Part shown: positions 24,503 to 32,141 of the stretch, piece by piece
Layout of the letters: the number at the start of each line of letters is the position of its first letter
Position numbering within the stretch: position 1 is the stretch's first letter
Assembly: GCF_013409985.1 (NCBI RefSeq)
Contig: NZ_JACCBY010000001.1
Span: forward strand, 1,116,001 to 1,180,000
Reading direction: 5' to 3'
DNA from: Sphingomonas melonis
GTDB taxonomy: Bacteria > Pseudomonadota > Alphaproteobacteria > Sphingomonadales > Sphingomonadaceae
DNA length: 64,000 nucleotides
Notes under the pieces: model-generated
The model's input: the letters and a program-made list of their open reading frames with translations, nothing else
Database searches by the model: none
Told to the model about the DNA's origin: nothing
Position numbers and translations under genes: made by a program

Positions 24503-25675
24503 TCAACCATCCGAACGAACCAGCTTGATATCGCGATCAGCGGCCCAGCCATGGACGTCCTCGCGCCGGAGGGCGGTCGCCATCAGGTCGGGAAACTGGT
24601 CGGGCGTGCAGGCGAACACCGGAATGCCCAGCGATGCCACTCGCGCCGAGAGATGCGGATCATAGGATGGCCGCCCCGTGTCGGAGAGCGCGAGTAGCAC
24701 GATGACGTTGACGCCCGACACCGCCAATCGCGCCAGCCGGTCGACCAGCGCTTCGGCATCGCCGCCTTCGTAAAGATCGGTGATGAGTATCAGATGTGCT
24801 TTGCCAGGTCGCTCGATCCGGTCTTCGCAATAGGCGACTGCCCGGTTGATGTCGGTGCCACCGCCCAGTTGCACCCCGAACAGCACCTCGACCGGATCGG
24901 CCAGTTCCTCGGTCAGGTCGACGATCGCGGTGTCGAAGCAGACGAGCTTGGTCGCCACCACGGGCAGCGACGCCATGACGGCTGCAAAGATCGAAGCGTA
25001 GACCACCGAACTGGCCATTGATCCCGACTGGTCGACGCACAGGATCACCTCGTCCAGATCGACGATGCGCCGCTGCTGGCGCATGAAGCCGATGAGGCGT
25101 TCGGGGACCACCGTGCGATACTCAGGCTGATAATTGCCGAGATTGGCGCGGATGGTGCGCGGCCAGTCGATATCGGCGAACCGTGGCCGGCTGGTCCGCC
25201 GCGAACGATCGAGCGCGCCGCGGATCGCGTCCGCCGTGCGCGCCTCCAGCCGGGCGAGCAGCGCCGCGACCACCTTCGCGATCACGACGCGCGCCGTCTC
25301 CTTCGTCTTTTCCGGCATCACCCCGCGCAAGGCGATTAGATCGGCGACCAGGTTCACATCGGCCTCGACCGCCGCCAGGAACTCCGGCTCCAGCAGCATC
25401 TGGCGCAGGCCCTTGCGATGGAAGGCATCCTGCTGGATCACCTGGACGACCGGCGCGGGGAAGAAGTCGCGAATATCGCCCAGCCATTTGGCGACGCGCG
25501 GTGCCGATCCACCAAGGCCGCCGCGCCCCTTCTTCTCTTCCTCACCATCGCCGTAGAGCGCGGACAGCGCGCTCGACATGCGGCGATCGCTTTCCGATAG
25601 CGCCACGCCGCCTTCGTCAGCCCCATCGACGCCGAGTGCGAGCGTCCAGCGGCGTCCGCGTTGGTCCTCCGTCAT
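24503..25675 (-). CDS. VWA domain protein, CoxE-like (YehP-type)
   Basis: This 390-residue protein has a helical N-terminal half, with Gly/Lys-rich EEKKGRGGLGG at about 46-56, and a von Willebrand A domain from about 207. The metal site is complete: DQSGS at 215-219, Thr274 in GGGTDI and Asp300 in LITDLYEGGD. In MoxR systems, VWA partners are thought to act with the ATPase as metal-delivery or remodelling adaptors. It is the last gene of a five-gene operon; its ATG overlaps the DUF5682 stop by 4 nt. No signal peptide is seen, so it is cytoplasmic. Confidence 0.85.
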   Translation of the reverse strand: MTEDQRGRRWTLALGVDGADEGGVALSESDRRMSSALSALYGDGEEEKKGRGGLGGSAPRVAKWLGDIRDFFPAPVVQVIQQDAFHRKGLRQMLLEPEFLAAVEADVNLVADLIALRGVMPEKTKETARVVIAKVVAALLARLEARTADAIRGALDRSRRTSRPRFADIDWPRTIRANLGNYQPEYRTVVPERLIGFMRQQRRIVDLDEVILCVDQSGSMASSVVYASIFAAVMASLPVVATKLVCFDTAIVDLTEELADPVEVLFGVQLGGGTDINRAVAYCEDRIERPGKAHLILITDLYEGGDAEALVDRLARLAVSGVNVIVLLALSDTGRPSYDPHLSARVASLGIPVFACTPDQFPDLMATALRREDVHGWAADRDIKLVRSDG

Positions 25676-27921
25676 GGTCGCACCCCCGTCATCAGCGCGA
25701 TCACGCGCGCTTCGTGTGCGGGCCAGATCGCGACGGCGTCCGGCAGCAGCCGATAGCCGCGCGCGCCGCTGCCCGATCGGCCGAGAGCCGCGTCCATCAA
25801 CCGGCGCCGCTCATTACGGTCGAGGGCGGAGAACACCCGCCGGAACAGCGGCAGATTGGCGACGAACGCCTCCTCCTCCAAGGTCGAGAGCCAGCTATCG
25901 ACCACCTCGCGCAACGCCGTGTCGTGGATCAGCCGTTGTCCCGCGCCCTCCAGAAAACCTTCGAAATAGCCTGCGGCCGCGGCTGCCGGGGTGCCCGGCG
26001 ACAGCATCCGGGCGAGCAGTATGGCGGCTTGGTCCGCGGACAGCGCCTCCGCCTCGTAAAGCAGGCGTGCTGCGGAGCCGGCAATCAGGCGTGTCGTCTG
26101 CGCGTCGTCGAACAGCTTGCGCAACGCCTCGTGCCAGGTCGCGACCACGTCCGGTGCCAGCTCGGCCAGCTGGATCGCCCCGTCCGCCGCCAGGATTGCA
26201 CCGCGCAACGCCCCCGCGGCGTCGGCATCCAGGTTGCGCGCGGCATAGGGGAAGGCCAGCGCCGCCTGCACCACGATGCGCGGCATCAGCCCGGCGAGAT
26301 GCCCGACCGTTCCGCTCCGTGCTTCGCCATAGCGCAGGATGTCGGCCATGGGCGGCAGCGCGGCGAGCAGCGCCTGACAGTCGCTGGTCAGCGCGGCCCG
26401 GTCTTCGAGCAGGGCGATACCTTCCTGCGTCGCGCGCGGCAGGTCGGCAATCATGGCCCGGCGCACCAGCTCCGCCAGCGCGCCGAGGTCGGTTTCCGCC
26501 CGCATCGCCTCGGTCAGCCGTCCGCCGGCGGCTTCGGCGATGGTCGAGCCATGGATCAGGTTCTCTATCAATCGAACGGCATATTCGGGCTGCCAGGCCA
26601 AGACCCAATTCTCGCGGAACGTGCCGCGGCTGCGCCCGGCATCGGCCAAACGGCCCCACGGCACGTCGAGCGCGTTCAGCCGATGCAGCAGCGTCGAGCG
26701 TGCCAGCCCGCTGTCGCTGCGCAGGTCGAGCGTCAGCGCCCGTTCCAGCGCTTCGGGTTTCAGCCGCATGGCCTTTTGCTGGCGTTGCAGATCCTCCAGC
26801 AGCGGGGCCAGCGGCGTGTCGGCGGGGATCACCCCGACCGCAGACCCGATCAGCAATTCGGCGGCGATGTCGTCCCATATCGCGCGTTCGCCCTGGCAAA
26901 GGCAGGCGATCGCCGCCTCGCGCAGTTCCGCGAAGCCGGGATGGGGGCGGGCGCGCAAGGCGGCCAGCGCATGGCCCAGCCGCTGCGCTTCGATCACCGA
27001 TGCGGTGGACACGAAGTGGCCGTGTTCGCGCAGCACCCGCGCGATACGGGCGAGCCAGATTGCGTCGCGATCCTGGGCGTGGCGCGTGTCCCAGAGATGC
27101 GCACACCATCCCGGCGCAACGACCCCGGCACCATAGCCGCTCGCACGGGCGAGACGGGGGGCGGTCCAGGGTGCCCAGGTCGCCTTCGTCTTTGTCTTGG
27201 ATCGCCCCTTGAGCACGGCGCGATCGGCGGACAGGCTGATCTTGGCGGCCAACGCGGGAACGTGCCATGCGCCGCACACCACGGCGACCGGACCCTCGCT
27301 CGCCTTGGCGCCGCGCGCAATTTCGATACGCATATGCGCTTCCCGCGCCGCCTCGCGCCCGGATGGCGGGGCGGCTTCGCTGCGCAGCGCCGTCATAGCA
27401 TCGGCCACCGCCGCGAATACCGATGTCGAGGCGGGATTCTCCTCGATGACGTCGGCCCACCAGGATTCGCCATCGTCATACCCCGCCGCCATGGCCAGCG
27501 TGCCGATCGGATCGCTGGCGACCGGATCGTCGTCGGCGCTGACCTCTGGTTCCTGGTCGATGCCGATGCTCTGCTCGCCCTGCCGCTCGTCCGGCCAATC
27601 CCCAAGTCTGTCCGAGGCGGGAAGGTCGATGAAGCGCACCTCTGCACCATGCGCCACCGCCCAGCGCGCCGCCTGATATTCGGGAGAATAGTCCGCGAAG
27701 GGGAAGAAACTGGCGCGGGCCGGATCGTCCTCGACATAGGTGAGCAGCGCGACCGGCGTCGCCATCCCCGGATCGGCGAGCATCGGCAGCAGGTGCGAGG
27801 CATCCGCCGGCCCCTCGATCAGCACCGCCGCTGGCCGGAGCGCGTCAAGCGCCTCCACCAGACGACGTGCCGAACCGGGGCCGTGATGACGGACACCGAA
27901 CAGCGATACCTCGGCCGCCAT
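25672..27921 (-). CDS. DUF5682 family protein (YehM-type)
   Basis: This 749-residue cytoplasmic protein begins SLFGVRHHGPGSARRLVEAL followed by VLIEGPADA, a G-x-x-H / E-G-P arrangement like that at the start of TraB/TIKI or erythromycin-esterase-like folds. A His-containing VVCGAWHVPALAAKI follows near residue 240. The rest is mostly helical, without other motifs I recognise. Family membership is by recall. It lies 4 nt after the MoxR gene and overlaps the VWA gene by 4 nt. A hydrolase activity is only inference. Confidence 0.8.
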   Translation of the reverse strand: MAAEVSLFGVRHHGPGSARRLVEALDALRPAAVLIEGPADASHLLPMLADPGMATPVALLTYVEDDPARASFFPFADYSPEYQAARWAVAHGAEVRFIDLPASDRLGDWPDERQGEQSIGIDQEPEVSADDDPVASDPIGTLAMAAGYDDGESWWADVIEENPASTSVFAAVADAMTALRSEAAPPSGREAAREAHMRIEIARGAKASEGPVAVVCGAWHVPALAAKISLSADRAVLKGRSKTKTKATWAPWTAPRLARASGYGAGVVAPGWCAHLWDTRHAQDRDAIWLARIARVLREHGHFVSTASVIEAQRLGHALAALRARPHPGFAELREAAIACLCQGERAIWDDIAAELLIGSAVGVIPADTPLAPLLEDLQRQQKAMRLKPEALERALTLDLRSDSGLARSTLLHRLNALDVPWGRLADAGRSRGTFRENWVLAWQPEYAVRLIENLIHGSTIAEAAGGRLTEAMRAETDLGALAELVRRAMIADLPRATQEGIALLEDRAALTSDCQALLAALPPMADILRYGEARSGTVGHLAGLMPRIVVQAALAFPYAARNLDADAAGALRGAILAADGAIQLAELAPDVVATWHEALRKLFDDAQTTRLIAGSAARLLYEAEALSADQAAILLARMLSPGTPAAAAAGYFEGFLEGAGQRLIHDTALREVVDSWLSTLEEEAFVANLPLFRRVFSALDRNERRRLMDAALGRSGSGARGYRLLPDAVAIWPAHEARVIALMTGVRP

Positions 27922-27925
27922 CGCG

Positions 27926-29005
27926 TCAGATCAGCTCGGTCAGCGAGGCGTAATAACCCTCGAACCCGCGACGCTTCTTGAGCACGGTCTTGAGATATTC
28001 GCCCAGCACCGCCTTGTCCTGCACCGGGTCCTTCACCACCGCGCCGATCATGTTGGCGGCCAGCATGTCGGGCGTAAGTCGCCCGTCGTTGAAGAAGGTC
28101 GCCTGGCTGATCCCGCCGACCATCACGCCGATCGCCTCGGCGGTGGACAGCCCGCCACTGGGGGATTTGAGCGCGACCTTGCCGTCCTCGGTCGATCCGG
28201 AGCGCAGTTCGCGGAAGATCGCGACGACCCGCGCCACTTCCTCGGCGACGTTCTTCGGGGCGGGCAGGTCGAGACTGCGCGCCATCTCAGCCACCCGCTT
28301 GACGATGATCGCCACTTCCTCGTCGGCATTGTCCGGCAGTGGCAGGACGACGACGTTGAAGCGCCGCTTGAGTGCCGAGCTCAACTCGTTGACGCCCTTG
28401 TCGCGGTTGTTGGCGGTGGCAATGATATTGAACCCGCGTCGCGCATAAACCGCGCCGTTCAGCTCGGGGATCGGCATCATCTTTTCGGACAGCACGGTAA
28501 TCAGCGTGTCCTGCACGTCCGATCCCATACGGGTCAGCTCTTCCATGCGACAGAGCTTGCCCGTCTCCATCGCCCGCATCAGCGGGGTCGGGACCAGTGC
28601 GTCCCGGCTGGGGCCATGGGCCAGCAGCTGTGCACAATTCCATCCATAGCGGACCTGGTTTTCATCGGTCCCCGCCGTGCATTGGATCACCATCGTCGAA
28701 TCGCCGGTGATGGCGGCCGACAGATGCTCCGACACCCATGACTTGGCGGTTCCCGGCACCCCGAGCAGCAGCAGCGCGCGGTCGGTTGCGAGCGTCGCTA
28801 CCGCCGTTTCGATCAGCCGCCGGTCGCCGACATATTTGGGCGTGATCGCAGCGCCGCCGGGTGCAACGCCGCCCATCAGATAGGTAACGACGCGCCTGGG
28901 CGACAGCGCCCAGCCGGCTGGGCGACGGTCGGCATCGTCCGCCGCGAGCGCCGCAAGCTCACCGGCATGGATGTCCTCGGCGGGCAGGCGCAGCTTCTCG
29001 CTCAT
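27926..29005 (-). CDS. MoxR-type AAA+ ATPase (YehL subfamily)
   Basis: This 359-residue ATPase has Walker A GVPGTAKS (82-89), a Walker-B-like CRMEEL (152-157, Glu-Glu instead of Asp-Glu), sensor 1 ATANN (196-200) and the arginine-finger segment SALKRRF (210-216). MoxR ATPases work as hexamers with VWA partners to mature or remodel target proteins. The gene overlaps the DUF5691 gene by 4 nt and is followed by DUF5682 and VWA genes, the arrangement seen in E. coli yehLMP. It should be the motor of the operon's complex. Confidence 0.9.
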   Translation of the reverse strand: MSEKLRLPAEDIHAGELAALAADDADRRPAGWALSPRRVVTYLMGGVAPGGAAITPKYVGDRRLIETAVATLATDRALLLLGVPGTAKSWVSEHLSAAITGDSTMVIQCTAGTDENQVRYGWNCAQLLAHGPSRDALVPTPLMRAMETGKLCRMEELTRMGSDVQDTLITVLSEKMMPIPELNGAVYARRGFNIIATANNRDKGVNELSSALKRRFNVVVLPLPDNADEEVAIIVKRVAEMARSLDLPAPKNVAEEVARVVAIFRELRSGSTEDGKVALKSPSGGLSTAEAIGVMVGGISQATFFNDGRLTPDMLAANMIGAVVKDPVQDKAVLGEYLKTVLKKRRGFEGYYASLTELI

Positions 29006-30408
29006 TCGGTCGGTCTCCTGTTATCGAGCGCGGCGTTGAGCCGCAGCATGTCGAGCCGCGGATCGGAGGCGATCAGCCCCGCCGCCGCCAATTGGTCAAG
29101 CGCCTGCCGCGCCGCGCTGCCCGAGGCGATCAGGCCGAGCGCCAGTAACGCGTCGGCCTGATCGACGGACCTCGCATTCTCCGACGACAGCGCGTCGAGC
29201 AGCGCCTTGCCTGCGGGCGTGCGGATCGCATCATCGATCCCGCCATCGCCACCAGCGATCGTCAGTACCATCGCGAAGCTGGCGTCCGGCACGCCCAACA
29301 GTCGCGTTGCGATCTGACGACGTCGGGACGGAGACAATCGGGGTAGCAGTTCGGCCAGCGCATGCGGGTCCATCGCATTGCCAGCGTCCGACAGGTTGGC
29401 GATCGCTTCGACGATCGCATCGCTGGCCGAGCGTGCCGCCATGGCCGCCAGTTGCTGATCGCCGGGCAAATCCCGACCCCAGGGCCAAGCGGCGACCAAT
29501 TCCGTCGAAGACAGGCCCAGTGCTTGCGCGAAGCCATCAAAGGAAAGCGTCTGGATCAAGGTGTCGCGACGGTGCCGCTGGGCGGCGGTCTTCATCGTTT
29601 TCGCCACGATCGCGCGGGTGCGGCGTAGCAGCCCCCTGGTCTCGACGGTAAAGAAGGCGGCGAGTTCCGTGCTCTCCGCGTCGCTGCCCCCGGGGTGACC
29701 CAGACGCGCCAGCAGCGCGGCGGCCAGTGCCTTGACGCGGGGCGCCCGATCGCCGGTCAGCCGTTCCAATAGTGGCCGATCGGCGTCGCACAGTCCCATG
29801 GCCAACATGTCGAGCAGACGCACACGCCGGTCCGCAGGTTCATCGGCGATCCGTTCCGCCAGCAACAGGCTTGCCTGTGCGGGATCCTGCTGCCGTAACG
29901 CGGCAAACGCGACGTGGCGCGCAGCGGGTGCGAAGTCGGTCCAGTTTTCGGCGCTCAGCGCCTCGGGAGCGGCCGATGATGCGCCCGACGCGGCGGCCCA
30001 GTCCTGCCAAGCCGCATAAACCGCGGGCACTTCCTCATCGGGACGGGGCATCCAGTCGCCCGGATGCAGCGTCCAGCCGCGCGCATCGATAAAATCGAGC
30101 AGGTGACGGCGCGTCTGGGCATCGCGCATCTGCTGGAGCAGGCGTCGTACGCGAGGGCGAAGTCGGTCGGGAAGCGGCGGCTGGGCCAGCGCCGGAATGT
30201 CGTCACGTGGACGCACCTCCCCCACAGGCTGCGTGATCGCGAGCGTGCCGAGCAAATGGCCGGACAGCGCCAGCAGCCGCAGTTCCGCCTCACGCGCATC
30301 GGTGCCCAGCGTATCGCGCCAGGCGGCGGGGGCGTGAGCGGTCGCGCTGCCGCCCATGGTCCAGCGCGTCAACACCGGGCCTAGCGCATCGAATATCGCC
30401 TCAGCCAT
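29002..30408 (-). CDS. DUF5691 family protein, helical-repeat
   Basis: This 468-residue protein is rich in Ala and Leu, with repeated helical pairs (such as RLLDMLAMGLCDADRPLLERL, RVKALAAALLARLGHPGG) that suggest a HEAT-like solenoid. No catalytic motif is seen. The DUF5691 assignment is from memory of this operon type. It overlaps the SWIM gene by 8 nt and the MoxR gene by 4 nt, so synthesis is probably coupled. It may be a scaffold for the complex. Confidence 0.75.
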   Translation of the reverse strand: MAEAIFDALGPVLTRWTMGGSATAHAPAAWRDTLGTDAREAELRLLALSGHLLGTLAITQPVGEVRPRDDIPALAQPPLPDRLRPRVRRLLQQMRDAQTRRHLLDFIDARGWTLHPGDWMPRPDEEVPAVYAAWQDWAAASGASSAAPEALSAENWTDFAPAARHVAFAALRQQDPAQASLLLAERIADEPADRRVRLLDMLAMGLCDADRPLLERLTGDRAPRVKALAAALLARLGHPGGSDAESTELAAFFTVETRGLLRRTRAIVAKTMKTAAQRHRRDTLIQTLSFDGFAQALGLSSTELVAAWPWGRDLPGDQQLAAMAARSASDAIVEAIANLSDAGNAMDPHALAELLPRLSPSRRRQIATRLLGVPDASFAMVLTIAGGDGGIDDAIRTPAGKALLDALSSENARSVDQADALLALGLIASGSAARQALDQLAAAGLIASDPRLDMLRLNAALDNRRPTE

Positions 30409-31780
30409 GGCCGATCCGCCCCCACCGCGTCTGCATCGCCAGCATCTCCAGCCGGTTGCCCGACCATAAGGCGGCTGTGCGTCTCAACTCGGTTCCAGCG
30501 GCCAGCCCCTCGACATCACCCGCCAGCGGCAGGGGTGAGGCGCCCTCTTGCGGTTGCCACCACGATGCGCCCGCCCGATCGAAGCCGATGCGCCCCGACG
30601 GAAGCAGGACCGGTCGTTCGGCAGCCCATGGCTCGGCGAGCAGCGGCGCGGTCAGCGCCTCCGCCAGTGGTCCGTCCGGCGGTGGCCAGTCGAGTGGAGG
30701 CCCGTCGACCAGCGCCGCTTCGCGCTGGATCAGCAGCGCGCGCAGGGGCATGCGCGCCGGATAGAACAGCAGTTCGCCAACGAATTGCTCGCCCGGCGTG
30801 AACGCTGAATGCCGTCGCCCGGCGCTGGCCGGAAAGAAATCGAGCAGCATCGCGAAGCGCGGCCCGGCGGCCAGATTGAGCAGCCAGGTCGTTTGCGATA
30901 CCAGCCCATCGCGGCGGGTGCGAATCCGCTCCGCGAGCACTTCCCAGGCGGACGTCACACGTGTGGGCGCCGGATCGGCCAGCAGCGTTTCGCGAGTCTC
31001 GGCCGCGGCCACGGTGCGGCGCAGTTCCGCATTGCGCGGATCGGCGCGAAACGCACGGGCGAGCAGTACCAGTCGCGCCAGTTCCACCGTCGCGCCGCGC
31101 ACCCGGTCGCCATTGGGCAGAGCGAGCAGTCGCGCGGGCATATCATCGACATGGCCCGCCAGGGCGGCGGCCTTGCCGTCGACCAGCCGCGCCGCGATCC
31201 GGCGACAGCGCGCGGTCACATCATCGACGAGGCCGCCAAGCCCCAGGCGAAGCTGATCGCTGATCCACTGTTCCAGCGCGTCCAGCCCATCCAGGATCAT
31301 ACGCTCGGTGTCTTCGGTTCGTTTGGCGCTGGTCGCCTCGCGTCGCGCCGCGGCCTTGGCATCATCGACGGGCTCGCGTTCGGCGGACCGGGCGGCGTCC
31401 AGATCCTTATCCGCTGCCGGTCTTGCCGACTTGGGTGCGCCGCTGGTCGAACGCCGACGCGCCAGCCACTCGCTCACCCATTCCGGTGTTTCCGCCACGG
31501 CGAACGCGACGATTGCCTCCGCCCTCAGCCAGAACAGGGCAAGAGCATGTTTGCACGGGAACTTGCGCGAAGGGCAGGTACACTTGCTTCCCCTGTCGCG
31601 AAGGTCTGCCATAACCCGATAGGGATTGGCCCCCGATCCGGCACATTCGCCCCAGATCAGCGCCTCGTCTTCGCTGATGCCGACTCCCGACCATTTTCCC
31701 GGCTTCGCAAGTCCGGCGGCGGCGTTGAGCGATGCTTGGTCGGTGGCAAGCTGTTGCACCGCCATCAAATCGATCGCCAC
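30401..31780 (-). CDS. SWIM zinc-finger protein (YehQ-like)
   Basis: Counting from GTG 31780, this 459-residue protein has LAKPGKWSGVG near the N-terminus and a SWIM finger CTCPSRKFPCKH, ligands C67, C69, C76 and H78, predicted to bind zinc and DNA or protein. An Ala/Arg/Glu-rich linker (about 100-155) leads to a helical C-terminal region. Other in-frame starts are TTG 31798 and ATG 31765. It is the first gene of the operon, so its upstream region (31799-32064) should hold the promoter. Confidence 0.82.
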   Translation of the reverse strand: MAIDLMAVQQLATDQASLNAAAGLAKPGKWSGVGISEDEALIWGECAGSGANPYRVMADLRDRGSKCTCPSRKFPCKHALALFWLRAEAIVAFAVAETPEWVSEWLARRRSTSGAPKSARPAADKDLDAARSAEREPVDDAKAAARREATSAKRTEDTERMILDGLDALEQWISDQLRLGLGGLVDDVTARCRRIAARLVDGKAAALAGHVDDMPARLLALPNGDRVRGATVELARLVLLARAFRADPRNAELRRTVAAAETRETLLADPAPTRVTSAWEVLAERIRTRRDGLVSQTTWLLNLAAGPRFAMLLDFFPASAGRRHSAFTPGEQFVGELLFYPARMPLRALLIQREAALVDGPPLDWPPPDGPLAEALTAPLLAEPWAAERPVLLPSGRIGFDRAGASWWQPQEGASPLPLAGDVEGLAAGTELRRTAALWSGNRLEMLAMQTRWGRIGHG

Positions 31781-32064
31781 ACTGCCCCCGATCCCCAATC
31801 CCTACCTCGAATGATAAGGCAGAATGGCAAAATCCCAAAATCGGTTTGCCTGCTTCGAGGCAGCTAAAGGCTGGCGTTTCCGATAATCGCTAGAGGTTTA
31901 AAGAACCCAGCTTCGTTTCCTCCCTCAATCCGGTAAAATTATCTGCAAGCGCCTAAGAAGACGCGAGTATGTGGCGCGGTAGGCATTGCGGGCATGAGGG
32001 TAGTGCCCGTGGCTGTTCGAATCAAGACTTATGGAACATTCAAAAACCAGGTGCTTACAGGAAA
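31781..32064. other. AT-richer spacer between SWIM-protein operon and tRNA-Arg
   Basis: These 284 nt hold no convincing gene. The composition is clearly lower in GC than the neighbours (for instance TAAAATTATCTG). It should carry the promoter of the five-gene minus-strand operon and the end of the tRNA transcript. No clear terminator or integrase remnant is seen. Confidence 0.5.
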
Positions 32065-32141
32065 TGGCGCGCCCGGCTGGATTCGAACCAGCGGCCACAA
32101 GCTTAGAAGGCTCGTGCTCTATCCATCTGAGCTACGGGCGC
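32065..32141 (-). tRNA. tRNA-Arg (anticodon TCT)
   Basis: The reverse complement folds as a 77-nt cloverleaf including an encoded CCA. The acceptor stem is GCGCCCG (32141-32135) with CGGGCGC (32075-32069), the D stem GCTC/GAGC, the anticodon stem CGAGC/GCTTG around CTTCTAA, and the T arm GCTGG-TTCGAAT-CCAGC. The anticodon TCT reads AGA/AGG Arg codons, which are rare in GC-rich genomes. The 3' end points toward the five-gene operon. Confidence 0.95.

Follow-up and report, generated by a model that had tools for sequence, protein, structure and literature searches.

What kind of machine do five tightly coupled genes encode in the 64,000-nucleotide stretch of Sphingomonas melonis DNA analyzed here (contig NZ_JACCBY010000001.1, positions 1,116,001 to 1,180,000; hereafter the window)? 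The operon comprises five intact open reading frames (ORFs) on the minus strand, running from 31780 to 24503, which encode, in order of transcription, a SWIM zinc-finger protein, a DUF5691 protein, a MoxR-type AAA+ ATPase, a DUF5682 protein and a VWA_CoxE protein. By sequence comparison, the operon is a homologue of ddrTUVWX, a set already named in Deinococcus, and, in its core triad of MoxR, DUF5682 and VWA genes, of yehLMP from E. coli. The original prediction, made from the letters of the DNA, took the set for an undescribed machine; this cannot be upheld, ddrTUVWX being the same kind of gene set and induced by radiation. What appears new, as far as the available literature passages on the Deinococcus set go, is the exchange of one partner between loci, the mechanism proposed below and a TraB-like domain. 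Whether the five genes encode an accessory, ATP-driven complex that remodels proteins under stress, built on MoxR and VWA and equipped with a TraB-like hydrolase subunit, is in our assessment an even call.

The gene junctions comprise, in transcription order, an 8-nt overlap, a 4-nt overlap, a 4-nt gap and a 4-nt overlap, in agreement with the tight coupling first claimed. All five products match Pfam families above the respective cut-offs (given in brackets), with 31.5 bits (19.6) for SWIM, 72 (27) for DUF5691, 125.9 (22) for AAA_5, 721.6 (26) for DUF5682 and 177.4 (26.4) for VWA_CoxE, and an NCBIfam scan of the five proteins returned nothing above NCBIfam's own cut-off. The SWIM gene was taken to start at the GTG at 31780, the listed ORF opening further upstream with a TTG at 31798. 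The genome carries one DUF5682 gene.

The scan of the window DUF5682 protein against one genome per species gave 52 loci, mostly from alphaproteobacteria, the others including some gammaproteobacteria as well as one actinobacterium and one verrucomicrobium; with E. coli, 27 further loci (30 minus three repeats of L003, L008 and L036) and D. taeanensis, the comparison comprises 81 loci, a few genomes giving two or three. MoxR and VWA genes both adjoin the DUF5682 gene in 75 of the 81 loci, the six exceptions being due to (i) contig ends (L021, L049, L101), (ii) a deletion (L023), and (iii) rearrangements, with the VWA gene upstream in L096 and two WGR-DUF4132 genes preceding it in L100. A SWIM gene is present in 70/81. 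The remaining partner is DUF5691 at 56 loci and DUF4132 (within 8 kb) at 13, with both at none and neither at 12; among the latter, L089 has DUF5691 by Pfam, the proteins of L090 and L091 cluster with that of L089, L021, L030, L044 and L101 end nearby (the L044 genome does carry DUF5691), L023 has the deletion, in L052 DUF5691 lies about 6.6 kb out of place, and L094-L096 are long forms. One partner is exchangeable, either DUF5691 or DUF4132, and never both at one locus. The notion that all five genes are conserved together thus stands for the MoxR-DUF5682-VWA triad, but the complete operon is not one fixed set, given the swap between DUF5691 and DUF4132.

The same division is found in a draw of genomes from the phylum, where DUF5682 exceeds the cut-off in 12 of 299 genomes, with one more match below it. 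Type A DUF5682 (658-865 bits) occurs in six genomes, exactly those with DUF5691 above the cut-off and in the same cluster in 6/6, with DUF5691 matches below the cut-off in two other genomes; type B (328-371 bits) occurs in seven, DUF4132 being present in 7/7; it shares the cluster in six and in G167 lies on a different contig, the DUF5682 contig ending there. G196 holds both types at separate loci, and DUF4132 occurs without DUF5682 in G007 and G200. Each association reaches a Fisher p of about 1e-12, kinship being ignored. Homology between the two partners was rejected, the hhalign comparison of DUF5691 with DUF4132 (73 columns, E 0.016, probability 2.8%) being the best of five profiles and not significant. 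Pairwise distances of the five proteins correlate at 0.90-0.98 over 39 loci, uncorrected for the species tree, and change relative to MoxR amounts to 1.2 times for VWA, 1.9 for DUF5682, 2.2 for SWIM and 3.1 for DUF5691; a co-inherited set of five genes is supported.

Several loci show layouts of their own. The copy in L052:2115-8760 looks interrupted, with about 6.6 kb of other genes separating DUF5691 from MoxR, and in L023:8667-12855, from Sphingomonas, neither DUF5691 nor MoxR is present and the SWIM frame merges with that of DUF5682, indicating a decayed operon or an assembly fault. Three tandem DUF4132 genes precede the type-B triad in L106:11895-19892. The actinobacterial form (L094:1573-12454 and L095:316-14877) displays a DUF5682-VWA fusion and, before MoxR, a protein of roughly 2000 aa that has no Pfam match in L095, the L094 counterpart clustering with it. 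The fusion suggests contact between DUF5682 and VWA, the sole direct hint of contact among the five proteins.

The Deinococcus counterpart is the five-gene operon Deide_18730-Deide_18690, named ddrTUVWX (Blanchard 2017, PMC5552922), which the available passages of that paper describe as radiation-induced under IrrE/DdrO in an IrrE-dependent manner, with a radiation/desiccation response motif (RDRM) upstream in the four species having the operon. In the same passages, induction exceeds 10-fold for the first gene (SWIM) and 5-fold for the last (VWA CoxE-like) and for two genes of 'conserved proteins'; at least four of the five genes stand in the most-induced table, Deide_18700 not being among the rows listed. 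The complete copy from D. taeanensis reads SWIM-DUF5691-AAA-(78-aa ORF)-DUF5682-VWA, in the order of the window, with identities of 33, 33 (over 72 residues), 63, 41 and 51% along the operon, BLASTP E values from 1e-4 (DUF5691) to 1e-160 (MoxR), and matches to all five profiles. In this copy, an RDRM-like site that agrees with the consensus at 13 of 15 positions begins 36 nt ahead of the first gene. Of 2000 stretches of 300 nt drawn at random from the locus, 1.7% reach the same score, roughly the proportion that a lone site would account for. A DUF4132 protein and a WGR protein of D. radiodurans, relatives of the type-B partner, are DdrO-controlled according to passages of PMC8533742. SOS/LexA control was rejected as a general feature, GTTC-N7-GTTC, GAAC-N4-GTTC and CTGT-N8-ACAG being unmatched in 64 upstream regions; GAAC-N7-GAAC has one match among them, in L028.

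In E. coli, yehI (DUF4132) and yehK are followed, after a gap of about 300 nt, by yehL-yehM-yehP-yehQ, and yehLMPQ is the type B, DUF4132 form. The window proteins share 40, 29 and 35% identity with those of yehL, yehM and yehP, adjacent and in order. The likeness to all four genes put forward in the original prediction stands for these three, but YehQ shares the SWIM domain alone: no BLAST match links it to the window SWIM protein, the domain being shared by Pfam. YehQ (L053:14101-15945) contains the CxC...CxH motif twice, beginning at residues 70 and 166, and the window protein has one SWIM match. DUF5691 was found neither in the E. coli yeh cluster nor in the E. coli control genome, and DUF4132 was not found in the window genome; the window thus lacks both the DUF4132 partner and a YehQ-type SWIM gene in last place. 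In the papers searched (bioRxiv preprints and most subscription papers lying outside the search), DUF5682 is not mentioned and no link of yehLMPQ with ddrTUVWX was found, and PMC7159879 holds none of YehL, SWIM, TraB, TIKI, DUF4132 or WGR.

The enzymatic part of the argument concerns DUF5682, taken at the outset for a possible TraB/TIKI-like hydrolase. The predicted model (predicted local distance difference test, pLDDT, 86.7; predicted template modelling score, pTM, 0.80) matches, over residues 1-232, chain 7w5z_E, whose PDB name is 'TraB family protein', with Z 9.5, a root-mean-square deviation of 4.8 and 12% identity over 192 aligned residues; the tool regards Z of 7 to 8 as common, and the domain was modelled within the larger protein. 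The remaining structural matches are mostly to the helical part, and in Foldseek neither this model nor that of DUF5691 has a match at E ≤0.001, with no TraB protein among the top 50 rows. Bazan is said to have described, in 2013, a TraB/TIKI signature of two GxxH motifs plus a conserved Glu and Arg. This arrangement is present in DUF5682, apart from changes of the first Gly in type-B and long-form proteins: in an alignment of 82 rows, including four duplicates and with gapped rows excluded per position (Table 1), H12, E36, R193 and H220 are conserved across all subtypes, and D99 is kept in 80/80 rows. At the level of profiles, GumN-type TraB gives an hhalign E of 0.018 versus 0.14-0.74 for four unrelated profiles, in register and weak. 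The predicted N-terminal fold and the retained GxxH/EGP motifs speak for the original view, but the sequence statistics are not significant and, as a profile-level match is missing, DUF5682 is not filed as a TraB/TIKI (PF01963) member. The N-terminal domain is predicted to be of TraB/TIKI type, and we infer a metal-dependent hydrolase activity for the protein. A TraB-family subunit of the ciliate respiratory supercomplex is mentioned in a figure legend of PMC10060162, and passages of PMC12329661 describe TIKI and TraB proteins as potential metalloproteases.

The other four proteins largely agree with the components first named. The motor has the features of a MoxR ATPase, its Walker A, sensor-1 Asn and the Arg of the SALKRR motif being kept in 48/48 aligned proteins; Walker B reads EE in all 48, where DE is usual for MoxR, and the closest solved relatives by sequence are midasin and NorQ. 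The VWA_CoxE assignment relies on the Pfam match and an intact metal ion-dependent adhesion site (MIDAS), in which both Ser of DxSxS and the last Asp are kept in all 50 aligned proteins, and the first Asp of DxSxS and the GGT threonine in 49 each. An AAA+ motor with a VWA adaptor that retains its metal site, as well as a zinc finger (SWIM ligands, Table 1), are supported by Pfam matches and conserved motifs, and the helical scaffold is recovered as a predicted HEAT/ARM-like fold of DUF5691 (pLDDT 87.3, best Z 8.8 over 92 residues), an arrangement so common that the fold does not identify the family.

Table 1. Positions of the operon genes, conserved motifs and flanking tRNA in the window.
Feature	Position	Strand	Remarks
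SWIM zinc-finger protein	30401..31780	-	459 aa, GTG start; matches first gene of Deinococcus operon
DUF5691 protein	29002..30408	-	468 aa, HEAT/ARM-like by prediction; diverges fastest among the five
MoxR-type AAA+ ATPase (AAA_5)	27926..29005	-	359 aa; slowest changing of the five
DUF5682 protein	25672..27921	-	749 aa; predicted TraB-like N-terminal domain (about 1-232) and helical C-terminal part
VWA_CoxE protein	24503..25675	-	390 aa
SWIM zinc ligands CTCPSRKFPCKH, residues 67-78	31547..31582	-	Cys/His kept 47/47
Walker A GVPGTAKSW, MoxR residues 82-90	28736..28762	-	G, K, S kept in 48/48 aligned MoxR proteins
First GxxH/HH motif of DUF5682 (G9-H13)	27883..27897	-	H12, H13 in 79/79 rows
E36 of DUF5682 ('EGP' glutamate)	27814..27816	-	79/79 rows
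R193-E194 of DUF5682	27340..27345	-	R 81/81, E 80/81
Second GxxH motif of DUF5682 (G217-H220)	27262..27273	-	80/80 rows
MIDAS DxSxS stretch of VWA protein, residues 213-222	25010..25039	-	from alignment
tRNA-Arg (tct)	32065..32141	-	operon start about 285 nt 3' of tRNA

In the proposed machine, the MoxR ring would work through the VWA protein, the metal site of which is intact, in the way that MoxR motors act via VWA partners in CoxD-CoxE, NorQ-NorD and RavA-ViaA. The SWIM protein and the HEAT-like DUF5691 would recognize the target. The enzyme of the complex would be DUF5682, in which a putative metallohydrolase domain of TraB/TIKI type is joined to a helical arm; its substrate would be whatever the motor has opened or presented. 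The complex may serve recovery from genotoxic or oxidative stress, a role suggested by the radiation induction of its Deinococcus homologue, ddrTUVWX. For this sphingomonad, we infer complex formation, hydrolase activity, target and stress role alike. A bolder version, which we regard as rather doubtful, would make the system a new class of stress-induced, AAA+-coupled hydrolase, in which damaged complexes, picked by SWIM and by whichever exchangeable partner is present (DUF5691 or DUF4132), would be unfolded or presented by MoxR-VWA and then cut by a TraB/TIKI-type metallohydrolase of the cytoplasm. If so, the partner swap would set the client, and we know of no TraB/TIKI-type metallohydrolase linked to an AAA+ motor before, though no search aimed at this was made. 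The analysis joins three strands that stand unconnected in the literature passages considered, namely the E. coli yeh cluster, the ddrTUVWX operon of Deinococcus and a MoxR-VWA machine that includes a TraB-like domain. As E. coli K-12 carries the DUF4132 form, function is testable in a standard laboratory strain, and the conserved His, Glu and Arg residues of DUF5682 are targets for point mutation.

A number of observations weigh against the remodelling complex so described. On the regulatory side, no SOS-type or RDRM-like match lies upstream of the window operon, which is accordingly filed as a ddrTUVWX homologue rather than as a member of the radiation/desiccation response (DdrO) regulon, and, with no damage box in the window, a damage or stress role here is drawn from homologues; an RDRM-like site occurs in one of 64 upstream regions, that of L179 (D. 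taeanensis). The identity with ddrTUVWX relies on gene count, order and product names together with a different Deinococcus species, D. taeanensis. On the enzymatic side, the first GxxH motif has G replaced by P in 9/15 type-B and 1/3 long-form rows, the broken copy L023 is without the N-terminal DUF5682 motifs (47/48 in the 48-row alignment), the TraB hmmsearch is not significant (3.6 bits versus 9.1 for the best shuffle), the hhalign of DUF5682 with TraB combines E 0.006 with a probability of 6%, and Pfam TraB (PF01963) is unmatched in 31 DUF5682 members. The D. deserti RNA-seq comprises, in the passages available, a single sample per strain and condition (PMC5552922).

The CoxE type of the VWA protein and the presence of NorQ among the near PDB relatives of the motor speak for a maturation chaperone in the sense of CoxD-CoxE or NorQ-NorD. 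In that case, a single dedicated enzyme would have its metal cofactor inserted or activated by MoxR-VWA, and DUF5682 would be a partner that handles metal or cofactor instead of a protease. E. coli molR, required for the use of molybdate according to the title of Lee 1990, lies in the DUF4132/WGR region before yehL; the molybdate role was kept within this explanation alone. No client enzyme stands out nearby, however: the Pfam families of the 127 flank proteins, among the 25 of 187 listed, are mostly generic and none occurs in more than five, the recurring flank-protein clusters being annotated in part, and passages of PMC8533742 report no differential expression of moeA and moeB when DdrO was depleted in D. 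radiodurans, although the DUF4132/WGR genes did change. We consider such a chaperone rather unlikely. Very improbable is that the five genes stay together for co-regulation without forming one complex; although no contact is shown among the five proteins, and SWIM and DUF5691 are divergent from the triad in L086-L088 or stand in another gene order in L031, the tight adjacency of the triad, the distance correlation and the DUF5682-VWA fusions argue otherwise. A role in RNA repair, with the machine working alongside RtcB-type ligases to remodel RNA-protein complexes once damage has occurred, has slim chances and is a lead only. RtcA-RlaP-RtcB-Ro60 adjoin the VWA gene in L001 (L001:13441-20500; at 45 nt, with RtcR following) and in L036 (L036:13603-18770), and RtcB with a band-7 protein lies one gene (CreD) from the DUF4132 gene in L104 (L104:17847-19894), these genomes being unrelated; RtcB Deide_21600 is radiation-induced too, by the passages of PMC5552922; and, in the draw from the genus, RtcB occurs in 8/10 genomes with DUF5682 versus 30/141 others (Fisher p 0.0003). 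Nevertheless, these are the three strong cases among 84 sequences (L015, L035 and L043 are weaker and L084 repeats L036), the window genome is without RtcB, the phylum draw gives 4/12 versus 69/287 (p 0.50), genome size may explain part of the enrichment (p 0.035 when the comparison is confined to those 39 of the 61 sized genomes that reach 3.8 Mb), and the statistics ignore relatedness.

The remaining contender, which we judge unlikely, is a MoxR-vWA ternary system directed against phages or used in conflict, in which DUF5682 would act as the effector. DUF5682 is patchy, occurring in 10/151 genomes of the genus draw, where it is accessory, in 10/149 of a draw from the Actinobacteria (the phylum of L030) and in the 12/299 of the phylum draw; other MoxR-vWA systems have peptidase effectors, according to passages of PMC12839542. 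The tRNA-Arg site holds the operon in L001 and is without it in all nine relatives examined (the best-matching of 61 genomes, with 17-20 kb around the site compared), one of which has a 99% identical PurC. An integrative element at the tRNA was considered and rejected, no second tRNA-Arg 3' end (at least 15 nt, exact) being present in the window, where integrases were not searched for. DUF5682 also occurs in 36 plasmid records, some chromosome-sized. By contrast, a copy is found in 5162/5426 E. coli genomes (~95%, at at least 80% coverage), 5320/5322 places being chromosomal, and in one of 50,697 phage records; near-core status in E. coli argues against a defence-only role. PADLOC run on the five proteins matches MoxR alone, weakly (best E 0.007), and iSTAND, VMAP and beta-propeller are unmatched by Pfam among them. 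In the flanks (127 proteins from 20 loci, up to four per side, 150-900 aa, own ORF caller), 28 PADLOC families match at E ≤1e-10 (25 listed), with strong single matches to AbiEi plus AbiEii in one flank and PDC-M60A/C in another; none occurs in more than 2/127 proteins, weak evidence in that the scan lacks a background control, and a defence island, association with which the original prediction proposed to survey, was rejected on this basis; a conflict role is not supported. The mixed distribution is more in keeping with a role in stress than with defence alone.

Compared with known systems, the operon shares MoxR and vWA components with the vWA-MoxR ternary conflict systems, but their third component is unmatched by Pfam and bpMoxR scores 24.4, below the cut-off of 27. 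With TraB/PrgY/TIKI proteins (PF01963), DUF5682 has in common the GxxH, Glu, Arg, GxxH arrangement and a predicted fold that matches a TraB-family chain, differing in the lack of a significant sequence match and in its large helical C-terminal part. NorQ-NorD, CoxD-CoxE and RavA-ViaA likewise comprise an AAA+ motor and a MIDAS-bearing VWA partner, whereas the window has three extra subunits and no client enzyme in the operon. The yehLMPQ genes provide counterparts of MoxR, DUF5682 and VWA, with a SWIM protein in both, and yet they have YehI (DUF4132) upstream, no DUF5691 and SWIM last, while the window has SWIM first and no DUF4132; moreover, they are near-core in E. coli, and the window operon is accessory in its genus. 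Finally, although ddrTUVWX differs by IrrE/DdrO control with an RDRM, none being recognizable in the window, and the D. taeanensis copy by the extra 78-aa ORF between its AAA and DUF5682 genes, the Deinococcus set comprises, in the passages available, five genes with SWIM first and a CoxE-type VWA last, and D. taeanensis matches all five.

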